The notes beneath the pieces were generated by a model, which had not been told where the DNA came from, searched no databases, and saw only the letters and a list, made by a program, of their open reading frames with translations. A program made the position numbers and the translations under genes. From contig CALVFO010000030.1 of the NCBI GenBank assembly GCA_944326855.1, positions 38,995 through 102,994 on the forward strand: a stretch of DNA of 64,000 nt, read 5' to 3'. Origin of the DNA: an uncultured Alistipes sp. GTDB taxonomy: Bacteria > Bacteroidota > Bacteroidia > Bacteroidales > Rikenellaceae. This document shows, in pieces, positions 2,386 through 18,998 of the stretch. Every line of letters begins with the position of its first letter. Positions within the stretch are counted from its first letter, which is position 1.

Positions 2386-4521
2386 ATGAAAACACTTTTT
2401 AGCCTGTTGTGTTGCGGGGCGTTGACTGCGGTGGTGACGATCGCCTGCCACGAAGGCACTATCAAAACGAACGATGGGATGAAAACCGAAAACGCCTTGA
2501 CCGAGGCGGAAAAAACGGCCGGTCTTTTAACGCCGGAAGTGCTCTGGAAAATGGGGCGTGTGGGTTCGGCGACCCTTTCGCCGGACGGGAAGACGGTGTT
2601 GTATACCGTCAGCCGTTACAGCGTGAGCCAGAATAAAAGTCAGACCTTGATCTGGTCGGTTCCTGAAGCGGGCGGTACGGCTTCGCCGGTGGTGGAAGGC
2701 GCCGCACCGCGTTGGAGCGGGGACGGTAGTCGTATTTATTATCTGGCGCCTCAAAATGGGGATACCCAGTTGTGGAGTGCGGCTCCGGACGGCAGCGGTG
2801 CCGTGACGGTGACGGCTGTTCCCGGCGGTATCGAAGATTACGGGGTAGCGCCCGACGGCAATCACTTGTATTACATCCAGCGGGTGAAGGTCGAAAAGCG
2901 CAACGGCTCGGAAATCTATACCGACATGCCCGAATCCCAGGTGAAAATCTATGACGATCTGATGGCCCGTCACTGGAACTATTGGGACGACGGGTCGTAT
3001 CTGCATATTTTCGTGGCTCCGGTGACGGCCGGTAAGGCGGGCGAAGGGGTCGATATCCTGGCCGGTGAGCCCTGGGATGCGCCGATGGCCCCCTATTTCG
3101 ACGGGAGTGAGATCGCCTGGAACCAAGCCGGGACCCAATTGGCCTATACCTGCAAGAAACTCAAGGGCAAAGATTATGCTCTGAGCACCGATTCCGATAT
3201 TTTCCTCTATGATTTGGCTTCGGGACAGACCCGTAACCTGACCGAAGGGATGCCGGGTTATGACAAGTATCCCGTTTTTTCGCCCGATGATTCGAAGATC
3301 GCTTTCACCAGCATGCGTCGGGCCGGCAACGAGTCGGACAAGGATCGTCTGATGGTGGTGGACCTGGCTTCCGGGGAGAAACAGGATCTGACTGCGGAGT
3401 TCGATTACAACGCGGGGAATATCCGTTGGGCCTCGAACAACCTGCTCTATTTTATTTCGCCCATCGAGGCGACCTATCAGTTGTGTCGGGTAGCATGTCC
3501 GGATCGGGCCGCTCAGGCCGACGGGGCTCCGACGGTGGAAGTGGTGACGAAGGGCGATCATGACCTGAATGCCTTTACGATGGCTGCCGGGAAGATGGTG
3601 ACCGAATTGACCACCTTGTCGGCTCCGACCGAACTTTATCGGGTCGACCTTCAGAATGGAGCGCTGAGCTGCCTTACCGATACCGATCCGGACATCCGGA
3701 CCCATATTAAAATGGGGGAAGTGCAGAAACGTTGGGTTAAGACCACCGACGGCAAGCAGATGCTGACCTGGGTGGTATTGCCTCCCGATTTCGATTCGAC
3801 GAAGAGTTATCCGACCCTGCTGTATTGCCAGGGCGGTCCGCAGAGTGTGGTCAGTCAGCGCTGGAGCTATCGTTGGAATGTACAGGTCATGGCAGCTCAA
3901 GGGTATGTGGTGGTGGCTCCCAACCGTCGCGGTTTGCCCTCTTTCGGACAGGAGTGGCTCGATCAGATTTCCGGGGACTACAGCGGTCAGAATATTCGGG
4001 ACTACCTGAGTGCCATCGACGATGTGGCCAAGGAACCCTGGGCCGACGAAAATCGCATGGGTTGTGTAGGAGCCAGCTATGGCGGTTATTCGGTTTATTT
4101 CCTGGCCGGTCACCATCAGAAACGCTTCAAGGCGTTCATCGCCCACTGTGGGATGTTCAACTTCGAAAGCATGTACGGGTCGACCGAAGAGCTCTGGTTC
4201 CCCAACAACGATTTGGGTGGTCCCTATTGGAGTGACGATCCGGTGGCCAAGCGCTCGTATGCCAATTCGCCTCATAAATTCGTACAGAACTGGGATACCC
4301 CCATTATGATTATCGTCGGTCTGAACGACTTCCGGATTCCGTATGCCGAAAGCCTGCAGGCCTTTACGGCAGCCCGTCTGCACGATATTCCCAGTCGGTT
4401 GGTAGTCTTTGAAAATGAGGGACATCAAGTATTCAAACCGCAGAATTCCCTGGTATGGCAACGGGAATTTTTCGGGTGGTTGGATAAATATGTAAAAAAT
4501 GCGACCCCGGCTGAAAAATAG
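2386..4521 (+). CDS. S9 family peptidase (prolyl oligopeptidase/acylaminoacyl-peptidase type), exported
   Basis: A serine exopeptidase that would trim oligopeptides outside the cytoplasm. The N-terminal half is a beta-propeller with repeated 'LSPDGKTVLY'/'FSPDDSKIAF' blades; the C-terminal alpha/beta-hydrolase domain carries the triad Ser ~564 (GASYGGY), Asp ~648 (GLNDFRIP) and His ~680 (NEGHQV). The ATG at 2386 is preferred over the in-frame ATG three codons earlier because it gives a clean signal sequence (MKTLFSLLCCGALTAVV); a Cys at the end of that segment (TIAC) could make it a lipoprotein, though the lipobox is weak. Length (~711 residues) is normal. Transcribed alone and closed by a terminator. 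Confidence 0.92.
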   Translation: MKTLFSLLCCGALTAVVTIACHEGTIKTNDGMKTENALTEAEKTAGLLTPEVLWKMGRVGSATLSPDGKTVLYTVSRYSVSQNKSQTLIWSVPEAGGTASPVVEGAAPRWSGDGSRIYYLAPQNGDTQLWSAAPDGSGAVTVTAVPGGIEDYGVAPDGNHLYYIQRVKVEKRNGSEIYTDMPESQVKIYDDLMARHWNYWDDGSYLHIFVAPVTAGKAGEGVDILAGEPWDAPMAPYFDGSEIAWNQAGTQLAYTCKKLKGKDYALSTDSDIFLYDLASGQTRNLTEGMPGYDKYPVFSPDDSKIAFTSMRRAGNESDKDRLMVVDLASGEKQDLTAEFDYNAGNIRWASNNLLYFISPIEATYQLCRVACPDRAAQADGAPTVEVVTKGDHDLNAFTMAAGKMVTELTTLSAPTELYRVDLQNGALSCLTDTDPDIRTHIKMGEVQKRWVKTTDGKQMLTWVVLPPDFDSTKSYPTLLYCQGGPQSVVSQRWSYRWNVQVMAAQGYVVVAPNRRGLPSFGQEWLDQISGDYSGQNIRDYLSAIDDVAKEPWADENRMGCVGASYGGYSVYFLAGHHQKRFKAFIAHCGMFNFESMYGSTEELWFPNNDLGGPYWSDDPVAKRSYANSPHKFVQNWDTPIMIIVGLNDFRIPYAESLQAFTAARLHDIPSRLVVFENEGHQVFKPQNSLVWQREFFGWLDKYVKNATPAEK

Positions 4522-15479: not shown

Positions 15480-15837
15480 TTCATGGCAGAACATGCAAGG
15501 GGCCTGATGGGTCGGCTTCTGGCACGCTGAACGACGCTCGACACCGGATCAAAGGTCGGTGACTGATCCGAACGCATGGAGGCCGGGGTCGCTTCAGGGT
15601 GTCATGGAGGCAGCATTTTCTCGATTGTTTCTCGGAGCAAGAAAGTAGGGGAGAAATCAGGAGGGGACGAGAGCGAAGAGATGAGCCGAAAACAAGGGAT
15701 CGGGAATGGAACTTTCTCCGAACGGTTTTGGACAAAAGTCTGTGTGGCCCTGAGCTCAGGGGTTTTCGGGGCCTACACGTTTCCGGTCGGGATAGAGAGT
15801 CTCCTACTCGGTAGGCTGCGGTATTCATATTGGGTAA

Positions 15838-15868
15838 TTGGGTAATTGGGTAAAATCAATTACCTTTG
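15838..15868 (+). promoter_or_regulatory. Promoter of the structured RNA at 15875-16161
   Basis: TTGG (15838-15841), 19-nt spacer, TACCTTTG (15861-15868). The octamer ATTGGGTA is repeated three times at an 8-bp step across 15829-15852, overlapping the -33 box. The preceding 15480-15828 holds nothing I can support. Confidence 0.6.
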
Positions 15869-15874
15869 AATATG

Positions 15875-16161
15875 AAATACGGGAAATGAAGCGGCTGTCA
15901 TCAGCAGCACGGTCCCGGGTATTGTCAAGACATATTGTTGAATACATAGGAGGTAAGACACCTTTTATACCTAACCGTAAATCTCGCGACCTCTCCGGGA
16001 ACGGAGAGATGATTTCTTCGGTATAATTGTTGTCTCGGCCTAAGTCATGTCCTGTCTCTGCCTGTGAGGGAAGAGTACGGGACAGGCTTGGGCGCAGGAC
16101 AGTTTTCGAAGATAGGCTCGCGAGGCCGACGGTTAGGAACTTGTCTCTGCGCCCTTTTTTT
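15875..16161 (+). ncRNA. Multi-hairpin untranslated RNA, class not recognised (leader/riboswitch or free-standing ncRNA)
   Basis: Successive helices can be drawn: CGGGA/TCCCG enclosing GCTG-TCAT-CAGC; GTATT/AATAC; TAGG/CCTA enclosing AGGT/ACCT; CCG..AAATC/GATTT..CGG enclosing CTCTCCG-GGAA-CGGAGAG (GNRA loop); GCCTAAG/CTTGGGC with CCTGTC/GACAGG inside; and a final GGGCGCAG/CTGCGCCC stem followed by seven T. The GGGC of the last two helices is shared, so they exclude each other, as in an antiterminator/terminator switch. The T-run ends one base before the ATG of the next gene. It lacks the RNase P core (GAGGAAAGTCC), tmRNA ends, the SRP tetraloop motif and cobalamin/TPP motifs. Function unknown. 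Confidence 0.55.
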
Positions 16162-16656
16162 ATGCTTATGAAAAACTCTTTTACTCCTGACATCCGAGAA
16201 TGGCTGGCCGTTGAAAGTCAGGAGGAAGTCTGTGCGGAATGGGAAGAAGGTTTGGATCAACGGCCTTGGGAAAGGAGTTTCGACCTTGCTCCGGAAGATT
16301 TCGAAACGGCGTTAATCGGAGAGTGGATCTGTCTGGGATGTTGTGTGCGCGAAGGCTCGTGCGGGTGGCGAGTGGATCACCGGATTACAAGTCCGGTGAA
16401 GCGCTGGCGGTTTTACCCGGAAGGCCTTTTGTGGGAGGAGAAAGAGGGTGTCGGCGGTGCGTGGTTCCCCTATTCGGTCTATCGGGCCCGTGGGGAGCTG
16501 TTCATCATGCGGGATCCCCGTCCCGGCCGTTGGCATCGGGAAGAGAGGTATGGCCTGGCCAGACTGGATTCAGAGGTGTTGTGGCTGTATGAACCGCCTT
16601 TCGAGGACGAAGAGCATCCACCGTGTCATAGCCTGGTCTTTCGGCGTGGGAGATAA
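16162..16656 (+). CDS. Hypothetical small lipocalin-like protein
   Basis: A 164-residue protein without a signal peptide. Residues ~48-150 are strand-rich with Trp/Tyr spaced as in small barrel proteins (IGEWICLGCC, RWRFYPEGLLWEE, FPYSVYRARGELFIM, EVLWLYEPPF), which resembles Bacteroidales lipocalin-like domains; the match is by shape only. The ATG at 16162 (or 16168) directly follows the T-run of the structured RNA, so expression requires read-through of that terminator or a start inside the RNA. The frame is open further upstream, but those codons are RNA helices. Confidence 0.55.
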   Translation: MLMKNSFTPDIREWLAVESQEEVCAEWEEGLDQRPWERSFDLAPEDFETALIGEWICLGCCVREGSCGWRVDHRITSPVKRWRFYPEGLLWEEKEGVGGAWFPYSVYRARGELFIMRDPRPGRWHREERYGLARLDSEVLWLYEPPFEDEEHPPCHSLVFRRGR

Positions 16657-16769: not shown

Positions 16770-18998
16770 TTATCGTACGACGATTTCGTCGATGAACATC
16801 AGGGCATCGTCCCCCGAATAGTAGTGCCATACGGGGCAAATGTCCATGCTGTTGATTTTCAGTTTGACATACCGGGCCTGTCGGGGTTCGAAATCAAAGG
16901 TATACAATTTCGTTCCGAAGAAGGGATCCTTGGTGACGGTATGGGTGACGGCTTGTCCGGCCTGCGAGAAATGCTGGCCGTCGATCGAGGTGAAGGCTTC
17001 GATGCGTTCGGGCAGGAAGGCCGACTCCCAGAGAATCTGCAGATGATGGGAATCGACGTGCCGGACGGTTTCCACTTTTTCGAGGTCGACGGTCAGTTCC
17101 ACCGTGGGTTGGTAGAAGCCCAACCATTGGGTGATCCAGATTTGCGTGCCGTGCAGACCGTCGGTCAGCAGGGGTAAACCCTGTCCCTGTCCGTCGCGTT
17201 TTTCGCTGACCGGAACGTTCGAAGTGACCGGTTTGCGATAAGCCAGGTTTCCTTCTTGTTGTACCTGAGCCATGTAGAGCATCTGATTCCGGTACTCATC
17301 CGGGGTGCTGTGATGTTCGGTTACGCGCCAGACCCCTTGTTTTTTACACAGTTCGGTAAATTCGTCCAGTCGATCCAACCATTCCTGCTTGGCTTGCCAC
17401 TTGCCGTCTTTCTCTTCGAGGAAGCCGCGGGGGCCGTACGGATCTTTACGGCTGATCTCCATGGCGGCAAAGTAAAGAGATTTGCGGGCGATTTTCACCC
17501 GGGTTTGGATTTCGGGATCATCGGCCGTGGCCTCCACGGCCTGATCCATCAGGGCGAGGTATTGTTCCATTTTGTCGGCCGACAGCCAGGTATCGGCATA
17601 TTCAGCCGCGTAGCGGTGCAGGCCGAGCCATTGTCCCGATTCCTGCATGTTGTGGCAGATCAGGTCGATGTATTGGCGGATATAGGGACCTCCCTGACCG
17701 TAGTAACCGTTGAGAAATTCGTTCATCAGCGCGTCGAAATCCTGATAGGGATCCCACAGCAGTTTGGAAACGACGTAGCTGCGCATCTCGCAGAGTTCGC
17801 CGCCCTGAATACCGCAACACTGTTCGAAGAAGGTCTTGACACCGTGAGAAGCAAAATATTGGATGTTGGGTTGCAATACGTACCAGTTGGGGAAAGGACG
17901 TTGCAGTTCGTTGAAACTGACCGCGTAGTCCCACATGAAGATGTTGTCGGTCAGTCGGGCCCAGTCTTCCATGTCGCGGCAGAAATCGGCGCTGGTCGAG
18001 TCTTCGGCAATCGGCATGGCTCGGTTGCATTCGATGCTGCAGAACATGATGTTGACGTTGGGGGCCGGTTTGGTTTTCGGGGCTTTGCGTGTGTACTGAT
18101 AGCCTAAGGTCGAGATGGTTTTGTCGGGGAAGCGTTCGGCCACCTGGTTGACGAAACGAATGACCGATCCGGCCGGACTGCCTTCTTCGGCATCGATGGC
18201 GGCGCAGTGTTCGCACTGGCAGTATTGGAAGTTGTCGTTGCTGCTGACCGACCAATATTGGGCGTCAGGATTTTTGGCGATTTCTTTGGCCAGGTTTTGG
18301 CAGATGATCTCCAAGACCGCCGGATTCGACAGGCAGGGTTGGGTTTTGCTGCGGCGTCCTTTGACCAGCGCAAAATACTCGGGGTGGGTTTCATAGAGTT
18401 CGTGCGGCAAAAGAATGTCGAACGTGTGCACGAACAATCCCCAGTTGTCTCGTTCTCCGTCAGGGGTTTGGCTCAGACGCAGCCAGTCGTTGGTGAGCGT
18501 ATCCAGCGGGAGCCCCGATACGTAACGTTCGGTGAATACCGGAACCTGAATGTCGTTCAGGGTGGCGGGAAGCGTCAGTCGGGCTTTTCGGGGGACGGTT
18601 TCGGCCTGAGGGGTATAGTGGCGAACGCCGAAGTAATCTTCCAACAGTGCATATACGCCGTACAGGGTTCCTTTGCGCGGGCCCCCCTGGATTGCCAGTT
18701 TCGGACCCAGGGTGCGGATTGCGAATCCGTCGGGCCCCAGACTGTCTAGTTGAGCGTATGTGGCCCGGTTGGTGCCTCCGATCAGAATTTCATGGTCGAT
18801 GGCGGCGGCGGTGTCGCGGACGATGGGCAATTCGCAGTCGGAAATGGTTTTCAGGTAGCGTTGCAGTTCGGTCGCTGCCCGGGTTTCGGTTTCGGTGGCC
18901 TGATTCGGGATGACGATGGTGTAGTCGTTCAGCGTCAGTTTTCCGGAACAGGAAGCCAATAAAAGGGCTAAGGTGCCCCATAAAAACAGTTTTTTCAT
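16770..18998 (-). CDS. GH163-type (DUF4838) glycoside hydrolase lipoprotein, candidate endo-beta-N-acetylglucosaminidase
   Basis: Three parts are visible: a lipoprotein signal (MKKLFLWGTLALLLASC), a GH67/GH20-like alpha+beta N-domain (residues ~25-130, PNQATETETRAATELQRYL...ILIGG), the DUF4838 barrel (~160-480, with YWSVSSNDNFQYCQCEHC, FMWDYAVSFNELQRPFPN and YVVSKLLWDPYQD), and a C-terminal F5/8-type sandwich (~600-742). Characterised GH163 members release complex N-glycans from glycoproteins; assignment here is by domain type. Likely surface or periplasmic. It lacks a SusC/SusD pair nearby, so it is an orphan gene rather than part of a utilisation locus. Confidence 0.82.
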   Translation of the reverse strand: MKKLFLWGTLALLLASCSGKLTLNDYTIVIPNQATETETRAATELQRYLKTISDCELPIVRDTAAAIDHEILIGGTNRATYAQLDSLGPDGFAIRTLGPKLAIQGGPRKGTLYGVYALLEDYFGVRHYTPQAETVPRKARLTLPATLNDIQVPVFTERYVSGLPLDTLTNDWLRLSQTPDGERDNWGLFVHTFDILLPHELYETHPEYFALVKGRRSKTQPCLSNPAVLEIICQNLAKEIAKNPDAQYWSVSSNDNFQYCQCEHCAAIDAEEGSPAGSVIRFVNQVAERFPDKTISTLGYQYTRKAPKTKPAPNVNIMFCSIECNRAMPIAEDSTSADFCRDMEDWARLTDNIFMWDYAVSFNELQRPFPNWYVLQPNIQYFASHGVKTFFEQCCGIQGGELCEMRSYVVSKLLWDPYQDFDALMNEFLNGYYGQGGPYIRQYIDLICHNMQESGQWLGLHRYAAEYADTWLSADKMEQYLALMDQAVEATADDPEIQTRVKIARKSLYFAAMEISRKDPYGPRGFLEEKDGKWQAKQEWLDRLDEFTELCKKQGVWRVTEHHSTPDEYRNQMLYMAQVQQEGNLAYRKPVTSNVPVSEKRDGQGQGLPLLTDGLHGTQIWITQWLGFYQPTVELTVDLEKVETVRHVDSHHLQILWESAFLPERIEAFTSIDGQHFSQAGQAVTHTVTKDPFFGTKLYTFDFEPRQARYVKLKINSMDICPVWHYYSGDDALMFIDEIVVR

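Follow-up and report, generated by a model that had tools for sequence, protein, structure and literature searches.

Introduction

Transcription-terminating riboswitches and leader attenuators are generally known to combine a long structured leader, a conflict between a terminator and an alternative fold, and a T-run placed just before the gene, and the RNA described here shares all of these traits. Type III and type VII toxin-antitoxin systems contain a structured RNA, or a nucleotidyltransferase combined with a HEPN domain, and such components are likewise met at some copies of this RNA. Candidate structured RNAs of the human microbiome have been reported (PMC8040213), including one of 49 nt located upstream of L20 and found mostly in Alistipes, and HTH_XRE genes follow 15 of the candidates mentioned in that report. 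The RNA studied here lies in a 64,000-nucleotide stretch of DNA from an uncultured Alistipes sp. (family Rikenellaceae; contig CALVFO010000030.1), hereafter called the window and numbered from its first letter.

Results

A preliminary description of the locus had proposed a multi-hairpin RNA bounded by a promoter and a terminator, and the window sequence bears this out, as promoter, many helices, a GNRA loop, terminator and T-run are all present at the predicted places on the + strand, to which all RNA coordinates below refer. Positions 15866-16162 fold at −120.5 kcal/mol, compared with −88.4 kcal/mol (SD 4.86) for 200 dinucleotide shuffles (z = −6.60), none of which was as low. The promoter (15838-15868) was found as previously read, TTGG-N19-TACCTTTG, with TTGG at 15838-15841 and TACCTTTG at 15861-15868 separated by 19 nt; we take it to be of the Bacteroidota type. 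A sigma-70 scan of the window called no promoter, presumably because this promoter is of another type. A TAnnTTTG box occurs within 75 nt upstream of hairpin HA (see below) in 56 of 81 Rikenellaceae copies and in 16 of 23 copies of a compact form of the RNA. Letter shuffles gave 2.7 and 1.5 such copies, respectively, and the reverse strand 2 and 1. In the window the box stands 86 nt ahead of HA, which places it outside the 56 counted. Three direct 9-nt repeats (ATTGGGTAA), set in 8-nt steps at 15829-15853, overlap the promoter and are a possible operator.

The RNA is predicted to adopt two alternative folds. Fold A comprises hairpin HA (15947-15967) and helices P1 to P7, namely P1 and P2, whose 5′ strands (15970-15978 and 15982-15989, together 15970-15989; inverted repeat I1) pair with 3′ strands at 16118-16137, hairpin P3 (15991-16008), P4 (16015-16021 with approximately 16106-16112), P5, and the P6/P7 stem-loop (16038-16093). 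Fold B comprises PB (15956-15974 with 16017-16035; inverted repeat I2), P3, P6/P7, the mini-hairpin P8 (16115-16127), whose loop is the 3′ strand of P2, and the terminator. The GNRA loop noticed earlier is the GGAA at 15998-16001, which caps P3 in both folds. A GGGC at about 16089-16092 had been credited with two mutually exclusive partners, and it proved to be part of the core GGGCGCAGGACAG (16090-16102), which pairs either upstream, in the base of P6 and in P5, or with the terminator strand at 16138-16154. Between the upstream strand TTGTCTCGGC (16030-16039) and the terminator strand TTGTCTCTGC (16141-16150), nine of ten bases are identical. The rivalry is wider than had been seen: PB and the terminator both cross P1, P2 and P4, the 3′ part of the PB 3′ strand doubles as the 5′ strand of P5, and the region 16090-16105 supplies the terminator 5′ strand in fold B, and the P6 base and P5 in fold A. 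Full coexistence of PB and the terminator alongside P1, P2 and P4 appears sterically implausible, because the crossing helices would leave few or no linker nucleotides.

An inverted-repeat search listed the same three rival pairings, that is P1 plus P2, PB, and the terminator core. A terminator scan reported only the hairpin at 15991-16008 and did not call the full terminator, presumably because its loop exceeds the length allowed by the scan. The terminator 3′ strand and seven T occupy 16138-16161, and the T7 (16155-16161) is directly followed by the ATG at 16162.

The distribution of the RNA was examined among relatives. An initial DNA search with a cut-off of E ≤ 10 gave matches in all 61 genomes, and we kept only those of low E-value in which an RNA architecture could be seen; the 3′ part was matched in several genomes of the same family, often more than once. 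With covariance model R1, the RNA was detected in 33 of 120 Rikenellaceae genomes, representing 12 of 22 genera, at 1-13 matches per genome with weak ones counted, and once in the window's own genome. For the best-scoring half or so of the 145 matches in total, loci were retrieved that yielded 87 matches, 82 of which were used for context after five weak ones had been left out. The window's own genome was the only one matched among 198 genomes of the order with R1, and among 295 with a second model, R2. A pattern scan of named genomes returned 46 stretches. R1 confirmed 45 of them, all from records titled Alistipes, Rikenellaceae or Bacteroidales bacterium, and a Paenibacillus match of the pattern was rejected for want of an R1 match. 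The complete genome of Alistipes sp. dk3624 has six R1 matches. When 395 genomes of the phylum were searched with R1, two weak matches (38 and 31 bits) in other families came up in addition to the window's own genome; by eye, these two keep the fold A helices apart from P3 and P7. Model R2, built with these two matches added, found copies, including ones outside its building set, in 5 of 248 genomes of one order and 16 of 195 genomes of one family, the seed included, and in 4 of 60 genomes of the other seed's genus, again with the seed included. This compact form of ∼157 nt occurs in two further families of the class, which brings the total to three. Two exact patterns gave no matches in viral contigs, one of these patterns fitting 27 of the 82 copies. 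At locus L021 (3592-4083) partial copies of the 3′ part stand in tandem behind a full copy, and at L074, L083, L090 and L111 the RNA stops 66-115 nt short of the end of its contig, as might be expected if a repeat came next.

A first alignment, A1, of 14 full copies (out of 19 sequences, four partial ones and one containing N being left out) had a mean column identity of 64% and a consensus of 47 pairs, 34 of them with double changes. Alignment A2 holds the 87 matches (85 distinct) fitted to R1, a model that contains HA, P1, P2, P3, P6 and P7 and leaves out P4, P5, PB and the terminator. On A2, fold A was paired in 93.0% of cells with double changes in 47 of 53 pairs and a covariation of 0.605 (0.237 when shuffled, at most 0.118 when slid), and fold B in 92.7% of cells with double changes in 33 of 41 pairs and a covariation of 0.500 (0.229 shuffled, at most 0.117 slid). 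The two folds have 22 pairs in common, in P3, upper P6 and P7. All 16 pairs of P1 and P2 carry double changes; among the pairs specific to fold B, so do four of seven in PB, where 95.3% of cells are paired, and 8 of 12 in the terminator, the clearest of which is A-U in 36 copies, G-C in 34 and G-U in 10.

Each strand was also compared for pairing energy with its own partner and with non-partners, these being all other copies for P4, P5 and the terminator, and only copies of less than 70% identity for HA, P1 and PB. Rows with N or shorter than 170 nt (four) and duplicates (two) were dropped, leaving 81 copies (78 in one run). The own partner was better in 80 copies for P1, in 80 for P4, in 72 for PB (inner part 74, outer part 56), in 60 for the terminator (worse in 21) and in 53 for HA (equal in 13, worse in 15). 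P5 received no support in the Rikenellaceae, being better in 43 and worse in 35 of 81 (P = 0.3). Control pairings gave P = 0.18 (HA 5′ strand with PB 3′ strand), 0.31 (P5 with the tail) and 0.061 (P4 with the tail), and one, P4 with the core, reached 0.025. In the compact form, fold A was paired in 94.1% of cells (double changes in 16 of 34 pairs; covariation 0.357 vs. 0.157 shuffled) and fold B in 94.3% (9 of 26 pairs; 0.316 vs. 0.238 shuffled), with P8 paired in 89.0% of cells; here the own partner was better in 21 of 23 copies for P4 (P = 0.0002), in 17 for the terminator (P = 0.006) and in 15 for P5 (P = 0.046). P5 as the sole antiterminator was given up owing to its weak covariation, and the case rests on P1, P2 and P4 against PB and the terminator. 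The preliminary description had looked to compensating changes in relatives for a decision, with helices lacking conservation there as the opposite outcome; the helices turned out to be conserved, and both alternative folds are supported. The aligned sequences thus offer strong evidence for two mutually exclusive folds that are both kept by compensating changes.

The two folds are close in energy. In the window, fold A with the tail unpaired has −90.1 kcal/mol and the fold with the terminator forced −90.3 kcal/mol; over 81 copies the energy of A minus that of B averaged 2.67 (SD 5.81), A being lower in 26. Without constraints, at least 70% of the terminator formed in the minimum free energy (MFE) structure of 16 of 81 copies. 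In growing chains of the window RNA, the MFE structure contained PB at lengths of 94-150 nt and P1 at all lengths from 190 nt onwards, and the terminator was absent at every length, full length included. The growing-chain structures therefore suggest that PB forms first, that fold A is favoured later, and that the terminator would need kinetics or a signal.

Because both folds covary, their energies are close, the compact form keeps both, and the downstream genes are mostly co-directional, we propose that this ∼290-nt leader RNA is probably a two-state, riboswitch-like transcription attenuator acting on the downstream gene at 16162. The intrinsic terminator, consisting of the core-tail helix and T7, stands before the ATG at 16162 and is opposed by a conserved, mutually exclusive alternative fold. 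Transcription would start at the promoter (15838-15868). Fold A (HA, P1, P2, P3, P4, P5, P6/P7) would occupy the terminator 5′ strand, so that the polymerase runs into the gene, while in fold B (PB, P3, P6/P7, P8) the core (16090-16105) would pair with 16138-16154 and form the terminator. The choice would be shifted by a signal, for which the conserved fold A junction nucleotides GUAAAC, GGUAUAA and GGCGCA are the probable binding site. Both folds and their conflict emerge from comparison of the copies, and promoter and terminator are recognizable as sequence features; we infer that transcription stops or reads through, that a signal takes part, and which way the switch turns. Against the attenuator count the weakness of P5, the terminator's presence in only 16 of the 81 unconstrained structures and never in that of the window, and the control pairing that reached significance.

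The proposed target (16162-16656, + strand), directly behind the T-run, encodes 164 amino acids and belongs to no Pfam family. It had been labelled lipocalin-like, for which we found no backing, as there was no Pfam hit and a single-sequence structure model reached a mean pLDDT of only 34.3. BLAST comparison of the protein with the downstream proteins of three other copies gave E-values of 0.015, 0.001 and 0.43. Convergent to this gene, on the − strand at 16770-18998, lies a 742-aa gene with DUF4838, GH67 N-terminal and F5/8 type C domains. Genes around the copies were called with a hexamer-scored caller that replaced naive calls, and with eight hand corrections, that of L085 resting solely on an antisense ORF which resembles the one of L103. 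Where the nearest downstream gene lies within 250 nt, it is co-directional in 37 cases and opposite in 6 (32 and 7 before hand correction); beyond 250 nt the numbers are 15 and 13 (uncorrected, 17 and 15). Among the downstream proteins tested are SLOG (PF06908), NYN with cold-shock (PF01936, PF00313) and an HTH_3 protein; several others have no family. Of the 23 compact-form copies, 18 have a co-directional ORF within 250 nt (length was the sole criterion for an ORF, and two were taken directly from the sequence). In the family with 16 of 195 genomes matched, downstream genes encode sigma factors (three tested) and one TonB-linked receptor. In the genus with 4 of 60 genomes matched, the four loci have a similar small ORF ∼40-50 nt downstream (two from the ORF list, two from reading the sequence). 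Three of the four also have a similar 287-aa gene 505-509 nt behind the RNA, the one 287-aa protein tested being integrase-like (PHROG 3.1e-6; Pfam below cut-off). The short downstream reading frames of L183, L188, L175 and L177 (the last read from the sequence) share LLKTxFAxKPKNPV-like tails.

The chief rival to the attenuator, which we regard as rather unlikely, is a stand-alone small RNA acting in trans, with fold A as the working form after release, a terminator that merely ends the RNA, and neighbours that are partners or there by chance. Among 79 Rikenellaceae copies, a co-directional gene follows within 150 nt in 32, 11 fall in neither class, and 36 have no co-directional gene within 250 nt and at least 300 nt of room; the helices are kept in these 36, which counts against the attenuator, and the energies of HA, P1, P4, PB and the terminator are alike in copies with and without a downstream gene (P = 0.10-0.89). 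A multi-copy RNA with its own promoter and terminator, for which fold A dominates unconstrained folding, would also suit such a role. What it leaves unexplained is the 37:6 bias towards co-directional genes and the preservation of PB by compensation despite its conflict with fold A, as an RNA with a single fold would not need PB. Under the attenuator reading, the copies that stand alone in relatives suggest a possible additional function in trans for the terminated RNA there.

Upstream of the RNA, an HMM search of the ORFs around the copies revealed a divergent small XRE gene at 52-216 nt in 29 of 82 copies and a divergent nucleotidyltransferase-HEPN (MNT-HEPN) gene at 62-265 nt in 14 of 82, leaving 39 copies, the window included, with neither; Pfam HTH_3 and HEPN/Polbeta domains were found in those divergent proteins that were tested. 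A protein search independent of the RNA gave 29 MNT-HEPN matches in 11 of 120 genomes; 15 of the 18 with E below 1e-70 sit 184-265 nt from an R1 match, and none of the other 11 is near an R1 match among those listed. In the compact-form family with 16 of 195 genomes matched, a divergent small ORF lies 87-173 nt upstream in 13 of 19 loci, 9 scoring above the Pfam HTH cut-off. These associations would fit an RNA that serves as antitoxin or regulatory partner of an adjacent MNT-HEPN or XRE protein in the type III toxin-antitoxin manner, but we consider this improbable, as the same RNA has differing partners between copies and almost half of the copies have neither; the window has no MNT-HEPN gene nearby, its divergent 115-aa ORF had no Pfam hit, and the MntA model gave the L080 protein only 22.8 bits, below the cut-off of 60. 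Three arrangements were seen in passing: two XRE-RNA units in tandem ∼725 nt apart at L066 (G004, ∼1821-2748), whose RNA and XRE sequences differ; a run of seven small XRE genes upstream of the L031 RNA (3479-3674), on the strand opposite to it; and, by eye, palindromes that differ between copies in the divergent gene-RNA spacers (e.g. L066, L123, L116), possibly operators of different XRE proteins.

That the RNA is a dispersed DNA repeat or transposon end which folds as a by-product is very improbable and was dropped because of the covariation counts: there are several copies per genome, at first detected by the 3′ part only, and one locus has tandem 3′ parts, but the copies diverge while double changes keep the helices, and promoter and terminator stand in fixed order.

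The class of the RNA had been given as unknown, and this stands after comparison with Rfam 15, which recognized two tRNAs in the window and nothing above the gathering threshold at this RNA. At a loose threshold there were four matches, all far under the gathering scores, and no match to the RNA was found in 15 Rikenellaceae loci or in 20 of the 23 compact-form loci.

Discussion

Judged by its sequence, the RNA is a conserved structured family without an Rfam entry and with the build of an attenuator. A large RNA with two exclusive secondary structures, both preserved by compensating mutations, constitutes direct comparative evidence for a switch. The RNA spans three families of one class, gut Alistipes included, with up to 13 matches per genome, and its neighbours include XRE, HEPN, NYN, SLOG and sigma-factor genes. 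Should the attenuator reading hold, the RNA represents a new riboswitch candidate class; should the trans-acting reading hold, a new multi-copy regulatory RNA. Quite tentatively, and with some doubt on our part, the RNA might be the constant, signal-sensing part of a class-wide mobile module, flanked on one side by an XRE repressor or MNT-HEPN and on the other by an output gene that can be exchanged (MNT-like, NYN with cold-shock, SLOG, HTH regulator, ECF sigma factor or TonB-linked receptor operon). A shared cue, for instance phage infection or a nucleotide signal, would then gate the outputs, which would make the module a previously undescribed RNA-gated switch for stress or defence.

A full-text literature search returned no description of this RNA, the motif tables of PMC8040213 lying outside the comparison, so that an overlap with a motif unnamed in its text is possible. 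The candidates of that report are, like this RNA, predicted structured RNAs, and no motif named in the part compared resembles an RNA of ∼200 nt. Unlike type III and type VII toxin-antitoxin systems, the present loci have a divergent layout and an exchangeable neighbour, about half of the copies are without such a neighbour, and the MntA score is far under the cut-off. Compared with known terminating riboswitches and attenuators, this RNA differs in having no Rfam class and two full folds under covariation. It also occurs many times per genome, roughly half of the copies lacking a downstream gene, and has a divergent XRE or MNT-HEPN gene as neighbour.
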